64,000 nucleotides of DNA from Gammaproteobacteria bacterium (GCA_034522055.1 JAXHLS010000002.1:3367549-3431548); one strand, 5' to 3'; numbered from the stretch's first letter, positions 24,148 to 35,918 are shown. Numbers and translations: made by a program. Notes: generated by a model not told the origin, from the letters alone.

Positions 24148-24669
24148 ATGCGCAAACTGTTGTTGAAAACGCTGCTTCGCTCGCTGATCACCAAGCCGGC
24201 ACCGGTTGCCGATGACGCCGAGCTGGTCTAGCTCACCAGGGCCCTGGACCTGGAGAGTACCACGCGCCGACGCACCGGCCGCAGCCTGGTGATCCGCATG
24301 GTGGATGCAGGAGCGTGCAACGGCTGCGAACTGGAGATCCAGGCCTTGAGCAACGCCTGGTACGACCTCGAGCGCTTTGGTCTGCACTTTGTCGCATCGC
24401 CGCGTCACGCCGATGTGCTGCTGGTCACCGGCCCGGTGACCCACAATATGCGCGAGGCGCTTGAACGGACCTGGAACGCAATGCCGGCACCAAAATGGGT
24501 GGTGGCTGCCGGAGATTGCGCGCGCGACGGCGGCTGCTTCGCCGCCAGCTACGCTGTGGTCGGCGGGGTAGACAAAGTGATCCCGATGGACCTGCACATC
24601 CCCGGTTACCCGCCGGCGCCGGTCGCGCTGCTCAAGGGCCTGCTGGCACTGCTCGAAGAAAACGCCTGA
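24148..24669 (+). pseudogene. Orphan [NiFe]-hydrogenase/NuoB-like small subunit with internal TAG
   Basis: The frame starts MRKLLLKTLLRSLITKPAP, runs into a TAG at 24229-24231, and continues in the same frame with a good NuoB/HyfI-type sequence. That part has GACNGCELEIQAL and GDCARDGGCFAASYAV, the 4Fe-4S ligands of the N2-like cluster. A shorter product could start at GTG 24289 and would keep all ligands. No other hydrogenase or complex I genes are beside it, so it is most likely a stranded, decaying gene of a group 4 hydrogenase or related complex. Confidence 0.75.
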
Positions 24670-24740: not shown

Positions 24741-24773
24741 GTGCTAAAACCGATTGTCAATCGGTTTTAGCAC
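24741..24773. promoter_or_regulatory. Perfect 15-bp inverted repeat, putative operator of the metal-efflux operon
   Basis: GTGCTAAAACCGATT and AATCGGTTTTAGCAC are exact complements separated by GTC. The repeat ends 25 bases before the first ATG of the repressor gene and is well placed to overlap the promoter. BlaI-type repressors bind dyads at their own promoter, so this is the natural candidate for the operator, although it does not follow the TACA-N2-TGTA core of classical BlaI sites. Confidence 0.7.
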
Positions 24774-24798
24774 CTGTATATTGCCCGCTCCTTTCCTG

Positions 24799-25221
24799 AT
24801 GCGGTCCCTCATGTCTTCGCTGGAATCAAAAGCCGCACCCCGCCTGGGGGACCTCGAAGCGTGCCTGCTCAAGTATCTGTGGACGGTCGAATCCGGCACG
24901 GCGAAGTCGGTGCACGACGCAGTCGGCCGGGCGCGCGGCGTGTCGTTGAATACCATTCAGTCGACGCTCGATCGTCTGCATACAAAGCAGCTCCTGGACC
25001 GCAAGAAGATCAGCCGGGCATATTGTTACACCGCGTGTGTCAGTTGTGGCTCTCTGCTCGCAGCGATGGTTTCCGAAGCCGCGACCCGGTTGTCCGGGGA
25101 CAATGCGATCGCCGTGGCGGCACTGATCGATGCCGCGGCGCAACTCGACGACGCCGCCCTGGACGAACTCGAGCAATTGATCGTGGCGCGGCGGGCAGGG
25201 GAGGGGCGCACAGGTGATTGA
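24799..25221 (+). CDS. BlaI/MecI/CopY family repressor
   Basis: A 140-residue winged-helix repressor of the BlaI/CopY family (GDLEACLLKYLWTVESG, SLNTIQSTLDRLHTKQLLDR). The C-terminal part, which carries dimerisation and in BlaI the protease cleavage site, contains CVSC, a possible metal or redox contact. It overlaps the M56 protease gene by 8 bases, as in blaI-blaR1 pairs, but here the pair leads a heavy-metal efflux operon. ATG 24799 is chosen; ATG 24811 is equally possible. A perfect dyad lies upstream. Confidence 0.88.
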   Translation: MRSLMSSLESKAAPRLGDLEACLLKYLWTVESGTAKSVHDAVGRARGVSLNTIQSTLDRLHTKQLLDRKKISRAYCYTACVSCGSLLAAMVSEAATRLSGDNAIAVAALIDAAAQLDDAALDELEQLIVARRAGEGRTGD

Positions 25222-26197
25222 AGCATTTCTCGGCTTGACCAGTCTATTGGCGATCGTTGCCGTGTTCGGACTGTTCACCGGTACGCTCGTCGCCTCGCTG
25301 AGCGCCCGCTTTTTGCTTTCCAGTTCATTTTTGGACCAAACTCCGCCCGGACTGCGCTGCCGCCGGGTCGAGCAAATCGCGCTGCTTCCGATCGCCGCGT
25401 CACTGCTCGCGATGCTCGCACTCATCCTGCCGGCGTTGTTCAAGCTTGCGGGACTGATCGACGACCATTGCCTGGCACACGGTCTGCATCATCCGCATTT
25501 TTGCCTACGCCACCTCCCGGCGTTTGACGCGAGCCCATTGGCGCTAATGGTGCTGGTCGCCGGCGCGCTGTCGATGGTCGGACTAGTGCGTGCGGTGCTT
25601 CCCCTGTATGGACAGGCCCGGCTGACGAACTCCATCGCGCGCATCGCGCCGCCAGACCGCCACGTGATCAGAACCGACTCGGAATCGCCGCGGGCTTTTC
25701 TTGTTGGCATTCAAAAGCCGCGGATAGTCCTGACTAAAGGGTTGTTGCGCAAACTGACGCCGCCTGAAAGACGGGCCGTAGTACGCCACGAGATCGCGCA
25801 TGCGCGTGCCGGCGATCTGGCGCGCAGGCTGATGCTCGTCCTGCTTGCCTCTCTGCATCTGCCGCAAACGGGGCGGTGCCTCTTGCGCCACTGGAACCAG
25901 GCGGCAGAGGAACGCGCCGACGATACTGTTGCCGCGCACGGCCAGGGACTGGACCTGGCATCGGCCCTGGTTAAAATCCTGCGCGGCAAGCGGCCTGAAT
26001 CATCGGTGCAGGCGCATTCGATGGGCGCTGATTCGGGCGATGTTGCCCGGCGGATTCGTCGTCTGGCCGACGGTCCGGGCGAATTGAGCAGTTCCTGCTG
26101 GCTGGAATGGTCGCTGATTGCAGGGCTCAGTCTGGTGACGTTGGCTGCGGCAAGCCAACACCACGCAGTCGAGACCGTTATTGGCTGGTTGGGATGA
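25214..26197 (+). CDS. M56 family (BlaR1-like) membrane metallopeptidase with His/Cys-rich loop
   Basis: A 327-residue integral membrane protease. About four membrane segments are visible, with the zinc motif HEIAH at about residue 193 and the glutamate ligand in EERADD. It lacks the extracellular penicillin-sensor domain of BlaR1. Between the second and third membrane segments lies a short loop DDHCLAHGLHHPHFCLRHLP with five or more His and two Cys, well suited to bind a metal cation. Together with its position between repressor and CzcCBA genes, I infer that it senses metal and inactivates the repressor. The GTG start overlaps the repressor gene. Confidence 0.85.
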   Translation: MIEAFLGLTSLLAIVAVFGLFTGTLVASLSARFLLSSSFLDQTPPGLRCRRVEQIALLPIAASLLAMLALILPALFKLAGLIDDHCLAHGLHHPHFCLRHLPAFDASPLALMVLVAGALSMVGLVRAVLPLYGQARLTNSIARIAPPDRHVIRTDSESPRAFLVGIQKPRIVLTKGLLRKLTPPERRAVVRHEIAHARAGDLARRLMLVLLASLHLPQTGRCLLRHWNQAAEERADDTVAAHGQGLDLASALVKILRGKRPESSVQAHSMGADSGDVARRIRRLADGPGELSSSCWLEWSLIAGLSLVTLAAASQHHAVETVIGWLG

Positions 26198-27417
26198 TGA
26201 TGATTCGGCCAGGAATCGTTGCCGCCTGTCTTGCCGGATGGATGCTGGCATTGGCCGCCCCTGTGCACGCCCAACCGCTTACCGAGAACGAGGCGGTGCG
26301 ACTGGGCCTGGAAGTTGCGGCCTGGCGCGAGTGGGCCGACGTCTCGATGGACCAAGCGCGCAACCAAACCCGCGCAACCGGTTTGCAAGACAACCCTGAA
26401 TTCGAGTTCATCGATGAATCGCTGGACCTGCCCGGCGGCAATACCGACCGCTTCTACTGGCTACGCCAACCGCTGGACCTGACCGGCCGAAACTCGCTGA
26501 TGCGCAAATCGGCTCGCGCCGCCGAAGGCGTCACTGCCGCAGACATCAGCCTGATCCGGCGCCAGCGCGCCAAGACCATTCGCGCTTCGTTTTATCGGGC
26601 GACCAAGCTCCGCAGGGAAAGCGAGGCCATGCAAACCTGGCGCGGCCGGTTGGCCGAACTCGGCCAGGCGGTGGCCGAGCGGGTTCGCGCCGGTGATGCG
26701 TCGCGCTTCGACCGGCTAAGGATACAGCGCGAGCAATCCTTGCTCGACGGCCGCCTGGCGGCAAGTCACGCCGAACTGAATTCGGCGCGCAAGCGACTGT
26801 TCGGTTTGCTTGAAAGCCGGCCGCGCACGTTGGCCGGCCACCTGTTGCCCGCCGATCCGCCCCAAGCCGCGGCCGTACTGGCCGCGTTGAAAACGCATCC
26901 GGAAGTCCGGCGGCTCCAGGCCGGCGCCGAGGCCGACCAGCTCGCCGCGCGCGCCGCGGGGCGGGAAGCCTGGCCGGAAGTCACGCTGGGTGTAGGCGTC
27001 CGGCGCTTCGAGGACGGCCCGATCTCGGAGACCGGCGGGGTTTTTTCGATCGGTGTCGAGGTGCCGTTGTTCGACCGCGGCCGCCAGCGCCGCGCGGCGG
27101 CCGAAGCCGGGGGCGGCGCGAAGTCGGCCGAGGCCGCGCTGGCAATCGCGCGACTGGAGGCCGAAGCGCAGGCCTTGCTCGATGAACTGGCGCTGCGCCG
27201 CAATGCAGCGCTGGCCGCGCGCACCGCGCTGGAAGGCGACACGGGCTCGCTGCCCGAGATCGCGGAAGCTTCCTATCGTGCCGGCGAGCTCGATGTCATG
27301 AACCTGCTCGATGCCTGGCAGACCGAACTCGATCTGCGCCTGCAGGCCATCGAACTGGCATACGCGGCGCGTGTGGCCTCGATCGAATTGATGCAACTGA
27401 CCGGAGAAGCCCAATGA
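26194..27417 (+). CDS. czcC: CzcC-type outer-membrane efflux protein
   Basis: A TolC-superfamily outer-membrane channel of about 407 residues. A signal peptide (ACLAGWMLALAAPVHA) ends near residue 27 and is followed by the coiled-coil repeats of the family (QPLTENEAVRLGLE, second half ending in IELAYAARVASIELMQLTG). It is the exit duct of the tripartite RND pump formed with the following CzcB and CzcA. Three consecutive ATG codons (26194, 26197, 26200) overlap the protease stop; any may be used. The stop overlaps the next ATG (ATGA). Confidence 0.9.
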   Translation: MMMIRPGIVAACLAGWMLALAAPVHAQPLTENEAVRLGLEVAAWREWADVSMDQARNQTRATGLQDNPEFEFIDESLDLPGGNTDRFYWLRQPLDLTGRNSLMRKSARAAEGVTAADISLIRRQRAKTIRASFYRATKLRRESEAMQTWRGRLAELGQAVAERVRAGDASRFDRLRIQREQSLLDGRLAASHAELNSARKRLFGLLESRPRTLAGHLLPADPPQAAAVLAALKTHPEVRRLQAGAEADQLAARAAGREAWPEVTLGVGVRRFEDGPISETGGVFSIGVEVPLFDRGRQRRAAAEAGGGAKSAEAALAIARLEAEAQALLDELALRRNAALAARTALEGDTGSLPEIAEASYRAGELDVMNLLDAWQTELDLRLQAIELAYAARVASIELMQLTGEAQ

Positions 27418-27815
27418 AACATGCCCTGATCCTCGCCAGCATCCTTGCCGCCGTCCTGTCGCTCGCCGCGTGCGGCGACCCTGCCCACGACGAAAGCGAA
27501 GCGCACAGTCACGATTCCGGAAGTTCTTCCCACGACAGCGGGGAGGCTCACGATCACGGGCCGGACCGCGACCATGCGCACGCAGAAAAGTCCTCGGGCG
27601 AAACGCAGGCGTTTTACGGTGATGAAGCCGAGTCGACGGCGGAAGAAGCGAAACCGCAAGAATCGGCAGGCGACGAGCCCGTCGGCGAAGACGGAAGCAA
27701 TCACGAGCACCATGACAATGGCCATCACGACCACGGCGATGCCGACGACGCCGCGCAATCCGATCCGCACGCTCATGATCACGGCGATGGCGAAGACCAC
27801 GACCCGCATGGATAA
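27414..27815 (+). CDS. Histidine-rich periplasmic lipoprotein
   Basis: A 133-residue lipoprotein: signal peptide with lipobox (LSLAAC, Cys at about 19), then a low-complexity domain of His, Asp and Glu (many HD, DHG and HHDHG units). Such domains buffer or deliver divalent cations. It overlaps czcC by four bases at its start and czcB by eight at its end, so it is a full member of the efflux operon. It probably collects metal for CzcB/CzcA in the periplasm. No catalytic motif. The low-complexity sequence makes homology calls unreliable. Confidence 0.85.
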   Translation: MKHALILASILAAVLSLAACGDPAHDESEAHSHDSGSSSHDSGEAHDHGPDRDHAHAEKSSGETQAFYGDEAESTAEEAKPQESAGDEPVGEDGSNHEHHDNGHHDHGDADDAAQSDPHAHDHGDGEDHDPHG

Positions 27816-29418
27816 AAATCTGTTGCTGCTGGCCGCTCTGGTCTTGCTGGCAGGCTGCGGCGCGCTGGAAACCGGAGACCACGCGCACGACCGCGACGAG
27901 GCCGAACACGCGCCTGCCGAGGAAACAGCGGCCGAAGTGGTGACTCACTACACCGCCGACAGCGAACTTTTCGTTGAATTCGCGCCGTTGGTCGCGGGCC
28001 GGGGTTCGCGCTTTGCGGCGCACGTCACGCGACTGAGCGATTTCGAGCCGGTGCGCGCCGGCCGGGTCGATGTGGTGCTGGCGCGCGATGGCCAGACCGC
28101 AGCTCGGTTCCGGGTCGAGCAGCCGGCGCGCGACGGCCTGTTCACGCCCACCGTCACGCCGCGCGAATCCGGCGAATTCGAGTTGCGTATCGAGGTCGAG
28201 GCGCCGGGCTTGAGGACTGTGCACGAGCTAGGCCAGTTCCCGGTATTTTCCGATCCGGGCGCCGCACGCGTTGTCGGCGAGGCGCCTGCCGGCGAAATCA
28301 CCTACCTCAAGGAACAGCAATGGCGCGTACCGTTCGCCACCCAGGCGGTACGCGAGGTGTTGATGCGGGCATCGGTACCGGGTGTGGCCCGGGTCCAGGC
28401 GCCCGCCGACGGCAGTGCGCAGGTGGTCGCGCCTGCCGACGGCTACTTCACGGCGGTCGAGGTTCCGCGCGCGGGCCGGCATGTGCAGGCCGGCGACGTG
28501 CTCGGCTACCTGGTCCCCCGGTTGGGCGAAGGCACCGACTTCGGCCGGCTGATGGCCGAACTGGAAAGCGCCCGCAGCCGGCTCTATCTGGCACGCCGCG
28601 ACGTCGATCGCTTGACCGCGCTGGTCGAAAAGGGCGCGGTCCCCGAGCGCCGACTGATCGAGGCACGCGCGGAGTTCAACGTCGCGCAAAGCGAGTTGCG
28701 CGCCGCTCGCGGGCGGGTCGAGCAACGGCAGGGCGATACGGCCGGGGCCGGCATTGCGCTGAAGGCGCCGGTGTCGGGCGAAATCATCGACGTGGCGATT
28801 GCACCTGGTGCGTTCGTGCGCGCCGGCGAGTCGCTGGCCTGGCTGGCGGACCCGACCCGGCGCTGGCTGGAAGTGCGCGTGCCGGAAGCCCGCGCGAGAC
28901 GGCTGGAAGAAACCAGCGGCGTCTGGTTCATGGCCGATGGCACAACCGTGGTGCTGGATGCCGCCACCGGCGCCCAGGTGATCCAGGCCGCGCGGCGCGT
29001 CGAACCGGCCTCGCGCACCGTGGTGGTGACGATTGAATACCCCTTGCTCGCCGCGGCCGGAGCGGCCGTCGGCGACACCCGCGCCGGCGACAATGAATCG
29101 AGCGCAAAACCGATCCCGGATGCGCCCGGGTTGATCGGCCTCGGCATGGCCGCACACGTGTATGTCGGCGCGCCGACCGAGCGTCTGGCCGTCCCGTCCA
29201 GCGCGATCATCGACGACGGCGGGCGACCCGTGGTCTACGTGCAGACCGGCGGCGAGAGCTTTGCGCGCCGGCCGGTCGAGACCGGTATTCGCGACGCCGG
29301 GTGGATCGAAATCCAGTCGGGTCTGGCGGCCGGCGAGCGGGTCGTGACCACCGGCGCCTATGACGTCAAGCTGGCGTCGGTCGGCGGCGAAGAGGTCGGT
29401 CACGGCCATGCGCATTGA
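27808..29418 (+). CDS. czcB: CzcB-type periplasmic adaptor lipoprotein
   Basis: The 536-residue membrane-fusion protein of the RND pump. It begins MDKNLLLLAALVLLAGC with a lipobox, followed by a short His/Asp-rich region and an N-terminal beta domain seen in long CzcB proteins. A barrel-sandwich hybrid (APADGYFTAVEVPRAGRHV), an alpha hairpin and the beta-barrel domain (WLADPTRRWLEVRVPE) come next, with a C-terminal domain ending EEVGHGHAH. A frame open from 27445 is only an overlap with the lipoprotein gene. It lies 33 bases before czcA. Confidence 0.92.
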   Translation: MDKNLLLLAALVLLAGCGALETGDHAHDRDEAEHAPAEETAAEVVTHYTADSELFVEFAPLVAGRGSRFAAHVTRLSDFEPVRAGRVDVVLARDGQTAARFRVEQPARDGLFTPTVTPRESGEFELRIEVEAPGLRTVHELGQFPVFSDPGAARVVGEAPAGEITYLKEQQWRVPFATQAVREVLMRASVPGVARVQAPADGSAQVVAPADGYFTAVEVPRAGRHVQAGDVLGYLVPRLGEGTDFGRLMAELESARSRLYLARRDVDRLTALVEKGAVPERRLIEARAEFNVAQSELRAARGRVEQRQGDTAGAGIALKAPVSGEIIDVAIAPGAFVRAGESLAWLADPTRRWLEVRVPEARARRLEETSGVWFMADGTTVVLDAATGAQVIQAARRVEPASRTVVVTIEYPLLAAAGAAVGDTRAGDNESSAKPIPDAPGLIGLGMAAHVYVGAPTERLAVPSSAIIDDGGRPVVYVQTGGESFARRPVETGIRDAGWIEIQSGLAAGERVVTTGAYDVKLASVGGEEVGHGHAH

Positions 29419-29451
29419 TACTTCTGGTTGCATTAGTAAGTCCCGTTCGCG

Positions 29452-32400
29452 ATGATTGACCGCGTCATTTCCTGGTCGCTGGGCAATCGCCTGCTGGTGC
29501 TGGTGCTGGCCGCCGGCCTGCTTGTCTGGGGCAGCTGGTCGGCGCTGCAAACGCCGGTCGACGTGTTCCCCGATCTGACCGCACCCACGGTTACCGTCGT
29601 CGCGGAAGCCCACGGGATGCCGCCGGAGGATGTCGAGATTCAGGTGACCCTGCCGATCGAGACCGCGCTGAACGGCGCGGCCGGGGTGCGTCGGGTGCGC
29701 TCGACCAGCGGCATCGGCATCAGCGTGGTCACCATCGAGTTCGATTGGGGAACCGACATTTATCGCGCGCGCCAGGTGGTGGCCGAAAAGCTTCAGATCG
29801 CGCGGGCCTCGCTGCCCGCCGAACTGCCGCCGCCGGTGCTCACACCGGTGACCTCGATCATGGGCGAGGTGATGTTCATCGCGCTCAAATCGAATGCAGC
29901 CGAGCCCGACATCCGGGACGAGATGGCGCTGAAGACCGCGGCCGACTGGGTCGTCAGGCGGCGCCTGCTGGCCGTACCCGGGGTGGCCGAAGTCATTCCG
30001 ATCGGCGGTCGCACGCGTCAGTTTCAGGTCATCGTTCAGCCCGAACGACTGGCCACCTTCGATATTTCCATGGGCCAGGTGCTCGAAGCCGTGCGCACGG
30101 CCGGGCGCAACGCGTCGGCCGGCTTCATGGTTGAAAACGGCCAGGAATTTTTGATCCAGGGTATCGGGCGAGTGCGCCGGGTTGAAGACATCGAACAGGC
30201 CGTGGTCGCCCGGCGCGACAACGTCCCAGTGCAGCTGCGTGACTTGGCCGTGGTGCGGATCGGTCCAGCGCCGCGCCGCGGTACGGCCGCGCACAGCGGA
30301 GAGCCGGCGGTGGTGCTGGGCATTCAGAAGCAGCCGGGCGTCAACACCCTGGCGCTGACCCGCCGCCTGGATTCGGCGATCGACGATATCCAGGCATCGC
30401 TGCCCGACGGCATGCGGATTGAGACCGATGCGTTCCGCCAGGCCGACTTTATCCGGATCGCGGTCGACAATCTGGGGGTGGCGCTGCGCGATGGCGCGGT
30501 GCTGGTCGTGGCGATCATGTTCGTGTTCCTGCTCTCGGCGCGCGCCACCGGCATTGCGTTGCTGGCGATTCCATTATCACTGCTGGCCGCGGTACTGACC
30601 ATCCGCGCGCTGGGCGGCAGCATCAACACGATGACGCTGGGCGGCATGGCGATTGCGCTGGGTGCGCTGGTCGACGACGCGATCATCGTGGTCGAAAACA
30701 TCGTGCGGCGACTGCGGGAGAATCAGGCACGGGCCGCCGACGTGCGCCGCCCGACCGTCGCCGTGGTCTTCGATGCCACGCGCGAAATCCAGGGCTCGAT
30801 CGTGTTCGCCACGCTGATCATCATCCTGGTCTTTTTGCCACTGTTCTTTCTGGCCGGCGTCGAGGGCCGCCTGCTGGAGCCGCTGGGCCTGGCCTACATC
30901 GTCGCGCTGGCCGCCTCGCTGCTGGTGGCATTGACGGTCACGCCGGTGCTGTGCCTGCTGATGCTGCCGGAGCGGCCCGAGGCCGGGAACAGCCACGACA
31001 ACCGTTTTACCGCTCTGCTCAAGCGGGGCTACCGGCCGCTGCTGGAAACCGCGCTGTCTCGCTGGCGCGCAGTCGCTGTAACGGCGACCGGCCTGCTGAT
31101 CGCCGCCTGTATCGCACTGGCGTTTGCCGGTCGCGGCTTTCTGCCCGAATTCAATGAAGGCAGCCTGACGATCAGCGTGGTGACGCTGCCCGGTACTGCG
31201 CTGCAGGAATCCGACCGCATCGGGGCGCAAGTCGAGAACATCCTGCTGGCGCAACCGGAAGTAGTCGCGACCACCCGGCGCACCGGTCGCGCCGAACTTG
31301 ACCCGCATGCCCAGGCGGTGTATTCGTCGGAGATCGACGTCAACCTGAAAATGCGCGAGCGCGAAAAGGCCGCGCTGCTGGCCGACCTGCGCGCGGCATT
31401 CGCCGCGATTCCGGGCACCAATATCGTCGTTGGCCAGCCGATTTCGCACCGCATCGACCACATGCTTTCGGGCACGCGCGCCAACATCGCGATCAAGATC
31501 TTCGGCCCCGAACTGCCCGAACTGCGCCGGCTCGGCGCACGCATCGAGCAGATCGCGGGGCAGGTCGACGGCGCCGTCGACGTCGCGATGCAACAGCAAA
31601 GCGAGATTCCGTTCGTCGCCATACGATTCGACCGCGCGGCGCTGGCGCGCTACGGCGTGTCGATGGCCGCCGCGGCCGAGATGGTCGAGGCGGCGTTCGG
31701 CGGCACCGTGGTCGGCAGCGTGCTCGAGGAATCGGCCAGCTTCGATCTGGTCGTGCGCTACCCCGAGCGCATGCGTGACGACTTCGAGACCTTGCGCAAC
31801 ACGATCTTCGAGACCCCGGCCGGTGCCGAACTGACGCTGGATACCATCGCCGATGTCCGGCGCGCCCGCGGACCCGATACGATCAGTCGCGAAAACGTCC
31901 AGCGCAAGATGGTGGTGATGGCCAATGTCGCCGGCCGCGATCTGGTCGGGGTGGTCGAAGACATGCGGCGGCGCATCGGCGCGCAGATTGAATTTCCGAC
32001 CGGTTATCACATTGAGTTCGGCGGCCAGTTCGAAAGTGCCGAGGCGGCCGGCCAAAGATTACTGTTATTGGGCCTCGTGGTCATTGCCGGCATTTTCTTC
32101 CTGTTGGTCACCGCTTTCACCTCGGCTCGTGACGCCGCGCTGGTGATGCTGAACCTGCCGCTGGCGCTGATCGGCGGCGTGGCCGGCGTGTGGCTGGCCG
32201 GTGGCGTCGTGACCATCGCGGCACTGATCGGCTTCATCACGCTGTTCGGCATCGCCACCCGCAACGGTGTGATCCTCATCGACCATATCCGCCGACTGGT
32301 CGAGGAGCACGACCTGGCGCCGGCCGAAGCCGTCCGCACCGGTGCCGATCAGCGCCTGATCCCCATCCTGATGACCGCGCTGGCCACAGCACTCGCGCTG

Positions 32401-32553
32401 GTGCCGCTGGCGCTGGCCGGCGGCCAGCCAGGCAGCGAAATCCAGGCACCAATGGCCATTGTCATCCTGTGCGGCCTGATCACCTCGACCGCGCTGAACA
32501 TGGTCGTCGTACCCGCGCTGTATCTGCGTTTCGGCGCCGTTTGCCGATCGTGA
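29452..32553 (+). CDS. czcA: CzcA-type heavy-metal RND efflux pump
   Basis: A 1033-residue inner-membrane RND transporter of the heavy-metal (HME) family. The first membrane helix (LLVLVLAAGLLVWGSWSAL) is followed by VDVFPDLTAPTVTV, and the TM4 region GALVDDAIIVVENIV carries acidic residues used for proton relay. The two large periplasmic loops and twelve membrane helices are as expected. It exports divalent or monovalent metal ions together with CzcB and CzcC; the exact ion cannot be read from the sequence. Last gene of the operon controlled by the BlaI/M56 pair. Confidence 0.95.
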   Translation: MIDRVISWSLGNRLLVLVLAAGLLVWGSWSALQTPVDVFPDLTAPTVTVVAEAHGMPPEDVEIQVTLPIETALNGAAGVRRVRSTSGIGISVVTIEFDWGTDIYRARQVVAEKLQIARASLPAELPPPVLTPVTSIMGEVMFIALKSNAAEPDIRDEMALKTAADWVVRRRLLAVPGVAEVIPIGGRTRQFQVIVQPERLATFDISMGQVLEAVRTAGRNASAGFMVENGQEFLIQGIGRVRRVEDIEQAVVARRDNVPVQLRDLAVVRIGPAPRRGTAAHSGEPAVVLGIQKQPGVNTLALTRRLDSAIDDIQASLPDGMRIETDAFRQADFIRIAVDNLGVALRDGAVLVVAIMFVFLLSARATGIALLAIPLSLLAAVLTIRALGGSINTMTLGGMAIALGALVDDAIIVVENIVRRLRENQARAADVRRPTVAVVFDATREIQGSIVFATLIIILVFLPLFFLAGVEGRLLEPLGLAYIVALAASLLVALTVTPVLCLLMLPERPEAGNSHDNRFTALLKRGYRPLLETALSRWRAVAVTATGLLIAACIALAFAGRGFLPEFNEGSLTISVVTLPGTALQESDRIGAQVENILLAQPEVVATTRRTGRAELDPHAQAVYSSEIDVNLKMREREKAALLADLRAAFAAIPGTNIVVGQPISHRIDHMLSGTRANIAIKIFGPELPELRRLGARIEQIAGQVDGAVDVAMQQQSEIPFVAIRFDRAALARYGVSMAAAAEMVEAAFGGTVVGSVLEESASFDLVVRYPERMRDDFETLRNTIFETPAGAELTLDTIADVRRARGPDTISRENVQRKMVVMANVAGRDLVGVVEDMRRRIGAQIEFPTGYHIEFGGQFESAEAAGQRLLLLGLVVIAGIFFLLVTAFTSARDAALVMLNLPLALIGGVAGVWLAGGVVTIAALIGFITLFGIATRNGVILIDHIRRLVEEHDLAPAEAVRTGADQRLIPILMTALATALALVPLALAGGQPGSEIQAPMAIVILCGLITSTALNMVVVPALYLRFGAVCRS

Positions 32554-32848: not shown

Positions 32849-33211
32849 TTGGCTTATTACATCGTTAAAGTCGCAGTGACCGCCATTCTGGTAGTCCTTA
32901 TATCGGAAATCTCCAAACGCAGCTCGTTTGTCGGGGCCGTGCTTGCCTCGGTGCCGCTGACTTCCGTCCTGGCGATGTTCTGGCTTTATGCAGACACCGG
33001 GGATGCTGGCAAAGTCAGCGCGCTCGCAGACAGTATCTTCTGGCTGGTTTTGCCATCGCTGGCATTGTTTATCGCGCTGCCTATTCTTCTGGCGCAGGGG
33101 ATAAATTTCTATCTCAGTCTGGCGGGATCGATCGGTATTACCGCAATTTGCTATGGGCTGATGGTGGCTGTGCTTCGCTATTACGGAGTCCAATATATAA
33201 ATAGCGTATAA
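32849..33211 (+). CDS. DUF3147 family membrane protein
   Basis: A 120-residue protein with four membrane segments matching DUF3147 (VLASVPLTSVLAMFWLY and FWLVLPSLALFIALPILL). The TTG start follows AGGAGGTAGACACGG, an excellent ribosome-binding site, and nothing upstream in frame is conserved. Function of the family is unknown. The short tail after the stop (AACGAGGCG...CGCCTC...GTTAAGT) looks weakly like an attC site. Together with the next two mini genes this may be a leftover of a cassette array. Bases 32554-32848 before it hold no gene I recognise. Confidence 0.85.
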   Translation: MAYYIVKVAVTAILVVLISEISKRSSFVGAVLASVPLTSVLAMFWLYADTGDAGKVSALADSIFWLVLPSLALFIALPILLAQGINFYLSLAGSIGITAICYGLMVAVLRYYGVQYINSV

Positions 33212-33917: not shown

Positions 33918-35069
33918 TTATCCTGTTCTACGGCCTCGGTGTCGCGTGTCGGGCGGTCTCCAGAGGGACCGACCGGGCGCAATCTGCGCGATCACGTGCA
34001 GTCGCCCGGTCCGGCACTGCGGGCAGGGATAGTCGACGCTGTCGTGGTGTGCGGTGCCGTCGTCCTTCTCCGGTGGGACGGGGACGGCCAGGGCCTCACG
34101 GATCCGGGCGAGCTTCTCCCGGCGGCCGCGGTTGGCCAGGAAGCCGAAGTGACGAATGCGCATCAGCCCTTTCGGTAGGACATGCATCAGGAAGCGGCGC
34201 ACGAACTCTTCGCCCTCCAGGGACAATGTCTTATGTCGGTCACGGTCGCGGTAGTCCTTGTACCGGATGGTCACCCGTTCGTCGTCGACCGCGAGGATCC
34301 GCGCTGGGGTGATCGCGATGCGGTGGGTGTAACGGGCCAGGTAGTCGACGACGGTGGCGGTATGGTCGAGACAGTGTTTGGTGTAGACCACCCAGTCAAC
34401 GGCCATCAAGGCGTCGAGTACGGCATCGACCTCGCCGTCGCGCGTGACACGGTACAGTTCGCCCTGGGTCGCGGCCTGGCGCAACTGTGTCACCATCCGC
34501 CCTCGGAAGTGCCGCGAGAGCGCCTTGACGGGAAACAGGTAGGTGCTCTTCGCCGCCCGCCACTGGCCGTCGCTACCCAGGGCTCCGCCGGGCACCAGGC
34601 AATGCAGGTGCACATGGCGGCTCAGGTTCTGGCCCCAGGTGTGCAGTACTGCACTCATGCCCATCTCACCGCCCAGACGCTTGGGATCCTGGCCGAACGC
34701 CTTGAGGGTGGACCAGGCCGCCTGAAAGAGCAGGCGGTAGATCACCTCCGGGTGCAGTGCCACCCAGCCGTTGAGGGTATGTGGCAGGGTGAAGACCAGA
34801 TGGTAATAGGTCACCGGCAGGATGTGCCCCTGCTGACGCGCGGCCCATTGGCGGGTCGCCCGTCCCTGGCACTGCGGGCAGTGCCGGTCGCGGCAACCGT
34901 GATACCAAACCTCTTCGTCACCGCAGGCGCCGCAGCGCAGCCGCACCCCGCCCATCGCCTCGGTTCGGCAGGCCTGCAGATGGCCACAGACCTTGCGCCG
35001 CTGGTAATCCAGCGTGTCAGCGCGCAGGAAGCGGTTCAGAATCCCTTGCACAGTGGCCGCCTCAGTCAT
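33918..35069 (-). CDS. IS91 family transposase
   Basis: A 383-residue rolling-circle transposase. The N-terminal zinc-binding region has CGHLQACR, CGACGDEEVW and CRDRHCPQCQ. The HUH motif is HVHLHCLVPGG at about residue 130, and the catalytic tyrosine lies in DYLARYTHRIAI. Family length is normal and no damage is visible, so the transposase may be active. Its start (ATGACTGAG) overlaps the end of the recombinase gene by eight bases. Confidence 0.93.
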   Translation of the reverse strand: MTEAATVQGILNRFLRADTLDYQRRKVCGHLQACRTEAMGGVRLRCGACGDEEVWYHGCRDRHCPQCQGRATRQWAARQQGHILPVTYYHLVFTLPHTLNGWVALHPEVIYRLLFQAAWSTLKAFGQDPKRLGGEMGMSAVLHTWGQNLSRHVHLHCLVPGGALGSDGQWRAAKSTYLFPVKALSRHFRGRMVTQLRQAATQGELYRVTRDGEVDAVLDALMAVDWVVYTKHCLDHTATVVDYLARYTHRIAITPARILAVDDERVTIRYKDYRDRDRHKTLSLEGEEFVRRFLMHVLPKGLMRIRHFGFLANRGRREKLARIREALAVPVPPEKDDGTAHHDSVDYPCPQCRTGRLHVIAQIAPGRSLWRPPDTRHRGRRTG

Positions 35070-35918
35070 GACCCACCCCCAGTCCCGCGATCAGATCGGA
35101 CACCCCCTGCGCAGCGCCGCGCTGCTCGGGTACCCAATGCACGTAGCGCATCGTCGATTGCAGGTTGCCGTGGCCGAGCAGGCGTTGCAGCCGGTGGACC
35201 GGCAGGCCGCTCTCCAGTTGATGGGTCGCATAGGCGTGACGCAGGCTGTGGATGCCGCCGATCTTCTCCACTCTGGCCCGGTTCTTGGCGCGACCGAACA
35301 CCCGCTGGGCGCTGGCGATACTGAGAGGGGTCGTCGTATCGCTTCCGCTGGGAAAGAGCCACGTGGGGGGCGGTAAATCGCCCAGTAACGGCGCAGCGCG
35401 TGAAGCAGGCCGGGCGAAAGGGTGACCAGCCGGTCCTTCGCCCCCTTGCCCTGCTCGATGCGCAGCAGCCCGCGTTCGCCATCGATATCACGCACCCGCA
35501 CTCGCACCACCTCGCTCACCCGCAGGCCGCAGCCGTAGCAGGTCTGAAGCAGCATGCGGTGCTTGGGGTTGGTACACGCCACCAGAATGCGCCCCACCTC
35601 ATCGCGGGTCAGCAACTCGGGGATCCGTTGGGCCCGCTTCGGCATCACGAAGGACACATCGAACGACGGCCACTTCAGCACCTGCACATAGAGGAAGCGC
35701 ACCGCACCGTGGTGAACCCGGCAGGTCGAACCGGATAGCGAACGCTCGACGGCCAGATACCTGAACCAGGCCTCCAGCTCTTCGAGGCTCAACTGACTCG
35801 GCGAACGCCCGTAGTACCGCGCCAGGGCGGTAACCGCTGCCAGGTAACTCTGATGGGTACGCACTGAAAAGCCACGCTGGCGCATGGCATCAATCATCTG
35901 CTGACGCAAGGGTGTCAT
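35062..35918 (-). pseudogene. IS91-associated tyrosine recombinase with a frameshift in a C6 run
   Basis: The first frame (from 35918) has the core-binding domain and the first catalytic arginine (CYGCGLRVSEVVRVRV). The second frame has HSLRHAYATHQLESG (HxxR) and LGHGNLQSTMRYVHW with the His and the tyrosine nucleophile. They join if one C is added to the run of six G at 35365-35370 (plus strand): reading then goes IYRPP-TWLFPSGSD without a gap. This is either a one-base deletion, an assembly error, or a site where -1 slippage makes the full protein. Confidence 0.85.

Follow-up and report, generated by a model that had tools for sequence, protein, structure and literature searches.

A six-gene operon that joins a BlaI-type repressor and an M56-family membrane metalloprotease to a CzcCBA efflux pump lies, behind an inverted-repeat operator, at positions 24741 to 32553 of the DNA analysed here, a 64,000-nucleotide stretch from a Gammaproteobacteria bacterium (GCA_034522055.1 JAXHLS010000002.1:3367549-3431548; hereafter, the window). 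We propose, with a probability of roughly 0.7, that periplasmic metal bound by an outer loop and a short C-terminal tail of the M56 protein activates the protease, which would cut BlaI and thereby derepress the pump of the resistance-nodulation-division (RND) class. The protease switch familiar chiefly from penicillin resistance would in this way have become a metal sensor. An earlier note, made from the sequence of the window, had drawn attention to this operon and to the loop.

A BlaI-M56 pair within a metal efflux operon

The union of a BlaI/M56 pair with a CzcCBA pump was confirmed using Pfam and NCBIfam models, and all six genes lie on the + strand. The repressor (24799..25221, 140 aa, alternative start at 24811) belongs to the Penicillinase_R family (PF03965), with an E value of 1.6e-18 and a score of 67.5 bits against a cut-off of 22.6, and the BlaR1-like protease (25214..26197, 327 aa) belongs to Peptidase_M56 (PF05569), with 36 bits against a cut-off of 31. 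They are followed by a CzcC-type outer membrane factor (26194..27417; OEP, 3.7e-19), a His-rich lipoprotein of 133 aa with the lipobox LAAC (27414..27815), a CzcB-type periplasmic adaptor (27808..29418; HlyD_3 and HlyD_D23) and a CzcA-type heavy-metal RND pump (29452..32553; ACR_tran and TIGR00914). The lipoprotein had no family match in Pfam or NCBIfam. CzcB carries a lipobox of its own (LAGC), a His-rich start and the C-terminus GHGHAH. The coordinates also bear out the gene order and the overlaps that had been claimed: successive genes overlap by 8 bp (BlaI-M56), 4 bp (M56-CzcC), 4 bp (CzcC-lipoprotein) and 8 bp (lipoprotein-CzcB), and the 33 bp between CzcB and CzcA form the only junction without an overlap.

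Conserved outer loop and C-terminal tail of the M56 protein

The M56 protein stops about 12 residues past its fourth transmembrane helix (TM4). Because of this early end it lacks a penicillin-binding domain, as the earlier note had stated; Pfam detected no such domain, which sets the protein apart from the BlaR1 and MecR1 receptors. The outer loop between TM2 and TM3 (D84-P102, DHCLAHGLHHPHFCLRHLP; 25463..25519, +) holds C86, H89, H93, H95, C97 and H100, which form a candidate metal site. The catalytic motif HEIAH (H192, E193 and H196; 25787..25801, +) and its partners E232, D236 and R280 correspond to the BlaR1 set H201, H205, E242, D246 and R294 (PMC9834060). A C-terminal outer tail, H316-H317-x-x-E320 (26159..26173, +), is a candidate for the second half of the sensor site; it had escaped the earlier note, as had the promoter overlap described below.

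Conservation was evaluated in an alignment of 54 proteins of the main branch, most of which share merely 20-33% identity with the window protein. P59, C86, H93, H95, C97, H192, E193, H196, E232, D236, A249, R280, H316 and E320 were invariant, and H89, H100 and D201 nearly so. The loop residues were used to choose 44 of the 54 rows, a selection that did not include H100, H316, H317 or E320. In addition, in 12 M56 proteins chosen without regard to the loop (21-29% identity), C86, H93, H95, C97, H316, E320 and the catalytic residues were all invariant. The unselected tail showed the H...E pair followed by 4-22 residues to the end in every one of the 44 complete motif-selected proteins. Poor conservation of the loop in homologues had been named beforehand as the result that would speak against a sensor role; instead, C86, H93, H95 and C97 proved as invariant as HExxH.

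An AlphaFold2 model of the M56 protein, built from a 56-row alignment excluding two plasmid sequences, had a predicted local distance difference test (pLDDT) score of 89 and a predicted template modelling (pTM) score of 0.87. In the model, three helices (2-34, 45-78 and 108-144) precede the protease domain, after which come helix 296-314 and a last helix, 316-326, starting at H316; the loop is placed between helices 45-78 and 108-144. The top match among solved structures was BlaR1 (Z 13.8 over 225 residues, root-mean-square deviation 4.6). In BlaR1, both termini lie outside, and the TM2-TM3 loop extends to the C-terminal sensor domain, which comes after the final membrane helix (PMC9834060). 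Since that loop and the sensor share the outer face of BlaR1, the loop and tail of the window protein would, by analogy, lie together on that face, at the place of the penicillin sensor.

An operator overlapping the promoter

The earlier note had described a perfect 15-bp dyad ahead of the operon. The dyad is indeed perfect, but its arms measure 16 bp around a 1-bp centre (GTGCTAAAACCGATTG-T-CAATCGGTTTTAGCAC; 24741..24773). A promoter, TTGTCA (-35) and TATATT (-10) separated by 17 bp, was located at 24754..24782 (+), with 10 of 12 matches and 0.1 sites in shuffled sequences. Its -35 box is placed in the middle of the dyad, so that the conserved operator AAAACCGATTGnCnATCGGTTTT overlaps it. The operator core AAAACCGATnnnnnATCGGTTTT is kept across the family: a blind search returned AAAACCGATTGAC-ATCGGTTTT-like sequences as the best palindromes 5' of BlaI in most loci, a core score of at least 14/18 was reached in 37 of 43 loci against 9 of 785 control windows, and most relatives have a -35 box TTGAC at the operator centre. 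The core is expected 0.01 times per window and has a single mismatch-free copy in the 5.1-Mb genome; the dyad is therefore not a chance occurrence, and the single copy suggests a single-operon, self-controlled circuit.

The possibility that the dyad serves as a terminator of the upstream gene was rejected, as the core is conserved together with the embedded -35 box. The operator reads AAAACCGATTGTCAATCGGTTTT and does not match the cop box TACAnnTGTA. Directly 5' of the operator lies a NuoB-like open reading frame (ORF) of 126 aa (24289-24669, +; Oxidored_q6, E 1.2e-31), which is shorter than usual NuoB models.

BlaI as the probable DNA-binding partner

The recognition region of BlaI is strongly conserved, with S55, R59, L60, K63, R68, K70 and Y77 present in all 54 relatives and N51 and T52 in 53. 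These relatives have no conserved Cys column, so BlaI itself is unlikely to be the metal sensor; a role for its Cys76, Cys80 and Cys83 was rejected, as these residues occur in just 2-3 of the 54. These data bear on a first alternative, in which sensing is cytoplasmic: derepression would start when metal loads the catalytic site or binds to BlaI, and the outer loop would be merely structural. M56 proteases do require metal at HExxH, and CopY, a related repressor, is itself a copper-binding protein (PMC10141476). However, the window BlaI lacks the CopY Cys hook and scored only 37.6 bits with the CopY/TcrY model TIGR02698 (cut-off 121.95), and the catalytic zinc, being common to all M56 proteins, leaves the additional conserved outer residues unexplained. 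We therefore regard cytoplasmic sensing as unlikely.

The loop tracks BlaI-M56-RND operons

The loop was back-translated as [DE]HCxxHxxxHxH[LF]C and about 85,000 species genomes were scanned, using no protein or context information. The scan used the spacing of the window loop, and relatives with a one-residue-shorter loop are therefore under-counted. It gave 51 matches, 45 of them inside M56 proteins; the other six fell outside an M56 reading frame, some with internal stops, against a rough chance estimate of about 4. BlaI lay directly upstream in all 43 motif-bearing M56 loci in which upstream DNA was present. Of the 45 loci, 38 combine BlaI upstream with Czc genes downstream, and two more begin at the M56 gene and have Czc genes, giving 40 of 45 with pump genes directly adjacent. 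In the remaining five, BlaI is present, but the available downstream stretch, which in three cases ends within about 1 kb, shows no recognised Czc gene; in L090, an unassigned ORF comes after the pair, and the fifth locus is L087, described below. Moreover, the motif was absent from 23 other M56/M48 proteins found in the same searches.

The loop thus tracks BlaI-M56-RND operons, and the His/Cys-rich sequence seen in the window, with its recurrence in 45 M56 genes of other genomes, is real, no one-off and no product of chance. The earlier description of an isolated rewiring has to give way to that of a family with an operator of its own, whose members occur in Gammaproteobacteria, in Myxococcota and in a small number of further groups. 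The same genome contains a second BlaI-M56-RND operon (L025:1148-9362; G000:C2, about 3.109-3.117 Mb), whose loop reads VDHCRAHDHHIHLCVIHTP and whose CzcA is of the DFGLIVDGA type. The M56 genes of these two operons are the only ones in the genome that score above the Pfam cut-off.

Pump type and likely metal

The window CzcA scored 821 bits with the CusA/CzcA model TIGR00914 (cut-off 701), which places it among the heavy-metal efflux (HME) RND pumps. Alignment to CusA showed Ser575, Ser625 and His670 at the positions of M573, M623 and M672, and the pump is thus not of the CusA type. The replaced Met triad speaks against Cu(I) or Ag(I), and the most likely inducers are accordingly Zn, Cd, Co or Ni, with Cu and Ag less probable. 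Close relatives of the window operon pair with pumps of the same ALGALVDDAIIVVEN type as the window CzcA; many others, among them the second copy in the genome, pair with DFGLIVDGAVIIVEN pumps (DFGxIVDGA), a signature that we take to belong to Zn/Co/Cd pumps. In one locus (L102), a Met-triad pump lies upstream of the BlaI-M56 pair.

Branches with altered loops or outputs

Several relatives weigh against metal sensing by the Cys/His loop for the control of an RND pump. A search of plasmid proteins, which gave nine records, revealed a sister branch on Shewanella, Glaciecola and Salmonella plasmids, with the gene order BlaI-M56-TolC-adaptor-CusA/CzcA, in which both loop Cys are missing and the operon, operator and tail are nevertheless retained; the loop Cys are therefore not essential everywhere. 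In three further loci (L026:1219-3298, L027:6524-9487 and L049:1-2189), a BlaI-M56 pair with the loop EHCxxHC....DHIHLC has no RND pump, and in L087 a motif-bearing pair adjoins MlaC and MMPL genes instead of a pump.

In a maximum-likelihood tree, the Shewanella-type proteins of the Cys-free branch, with the loop HWHH...F..SWH, grouped in one supported clade next to L083 and L126, both of which carry the full Cys/His loop. Given this position, loss of both Cys in this branch, with retention of the His residues, tail and operator, is the simplest interpretation. A third branch has EHCHxxxCxxH loops and no RND pump; here, BlaI-M56 is divergent to a gene for a TonB-dependent receptor (L055:791-4358, L056:6264-9852, L075:8314-12006 with a longer loop, L076:5805-9534 and L077:8658-12322), and this branch, with its related loop, may control metal uptake.

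The Cys-free branch also bears on a second alternative, a redox or thiol switch in which a C86/C97 disulfide would form or break and the operon would respond to oxidative stress in the envelope, not to metal itself. Although the invariance of C86 and C97 in the main branch fits such a switch, the His residues of the loop and the His and Glu of the tail show the same invariance and would be needless for it, the sister branch without both Cys still has the His residues, the operon and the operator, and the output of the operon is a heavy-metal RND pump. A thiol switch is accordingly very unlikely. It is likewise highly improbable that the signal is relayed by a partner, with the His-rich lipoprotein or metal-loaded CzcB docking on the M56 loop and no free metal being bound. 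The presence of the lipoprotein gene within the operon, and of small His-rich genes next to several relatives, speaks for such a relay; against it, the M56, TolC, adaptor and pump genes of the Shewanella-type plasmid operons have no separate gene among them, and the loop and tail His are still kept.

Genomic neighbourhood

Downstream of CzcA, the gene at 32849..33211 (+) encodes a small DUF3147/PRK09272-type membrane protein (NCBIfam NF006749, 143 bits), homologues of which adjoin BlaI-M56-RND operons in L021-L024, L052, L053, L068 and L127. Two ORFs recognised by reading just 3' of the operon (33918-35918, -), one IS91-like transposase and one tyrosine-recombinase-like, suggest a mobile neighbourhood. 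Among the relatives, L024 (NZ_CP100354.1, 44679-61062) is a Salmonella enterica conjugative IncC plasmid with an entire Cys-free operon and the same operator; the operon lies near a predicted small multidrug resistance (SMR) efflux gene. The pairs in L026, L027 and L049 adjoin small His-rich proteins, and L026 also a MerR-like regulator.

Discussion

Metal-triggered proteolysis of the repressor by the M56 protein would proceed as follows. BlaI bound to the dyad over the -35 box would repress the whole operon, its own gene included. The M56 protein would lie in the inner membrane with HExxH facing the cytoplasm and with the Cys/His loop and the short His/Glu tail outside. Surplus periplasmic metal would bind the loop and tail jointly, and this binding would shift the membrane helices and activate or unblock the protease. 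Activated M56 would cut BlaI, which would come off the operator, and the CzcCBA pump and the His-rich lipoprotein would then be made. Finally, the pump would lower the periplasmic metal, and intact BlaI would accumulate again.

The earlier note had taken such sensing to be an undescribed mode, a view that does not hold in general. In Synechocystis, the BlaR-family protease PetP is switched on by copper and degrades the BlaI-type repressor PetR, according to a commentary and two reviews (PMC7896320, PMC13421787, PMC10141476), one of which also remarks that several marine bacteria possess BlaR homologues whose role is not known. PetR/PetP of Synechocystis sp. PCC 6803 resembles the window pair in combining a BlaI-family repressor with a membrane BlaR-family protease and, as we infer here, in metal-triggered proteolysis of the repressor. 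It differs in governing the plastocyanin/cytochrome c6 swap and no pump, and in that PetR both represses and activates.

Staphylococcal BlaR1/BlaI and MecR1/MecI share with the window system the fold, the HExxH...E...D...R set, the TM2-TM3 outer loop, an outer C-terminal sensor element, the topology with both termini outside and, presumably, cleavage of the repressor (PMC9834060). Unlike BlaR1 and MecR1, the window M56 protein has a short His/Cys-rich loop and an 11-residue C-terminal H...E helix, and its operator and output are different. CopY/TcrY belongs to the same Penicillinase_R superfamily and also acts in metal resistance, whereas the window BlaI has neither the Cys hook nor a TACAnnTGTA box, lies far below the TIGR02698 cut-off and is paired with a protease. 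Two-component systems are the customary explanation for how heavy-metal RND pumps are controlled. CusRS and CzcRS induce CusCBA or CzcCBA in response to metal on the outer side of the inner membrane, as is proposed for the window operon; however, these systems consist of a histidine kinase and a response regulator, whereas the window operon contains no two-component genes and would rely on irreversible proteolysis of its repressor.

A literature search, thin on subscription journals and thus weak evidence of absence, found no published account of the M56-RND link, the loop, the tail or the operator. While the principle of metal-triggered proteolysis of a BlaI-type repressor is known, what appears to be new is the sensor element, the efflux-pump output, the operator and the broad distribution. 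On balance, we favour the view that these proteins make up a widespread, undescribed family of M56 receptors, which would perceive periplasmic metal via a Cys/His loop and a His/Glu tail in place of the BlaR1 penicillin sensor. Such a family, with a Cys-free, His-only branch inside it and specificity tuned by the loop, would control HME-RND pumps beside two-component systems and extracytoplasmic function (ECF) sigma factors.

For the biology of these bacteria, a proteolytic, irreversible switch is apparently tied to an RND pump in at least 40 species of several phyla, and conjugative plasmids, including one from Salmonella, carry the Cys-free form. The annotation 'BlaI/M56' in such operons need not mean beta-lactam resistance. 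Moreover, the minimal replacement for the beta-lactam sensor of an M56 receptor may be one loop and one short helix, a site small enough to make the activation of M56 proteases by an outer signal testable by point mutation.

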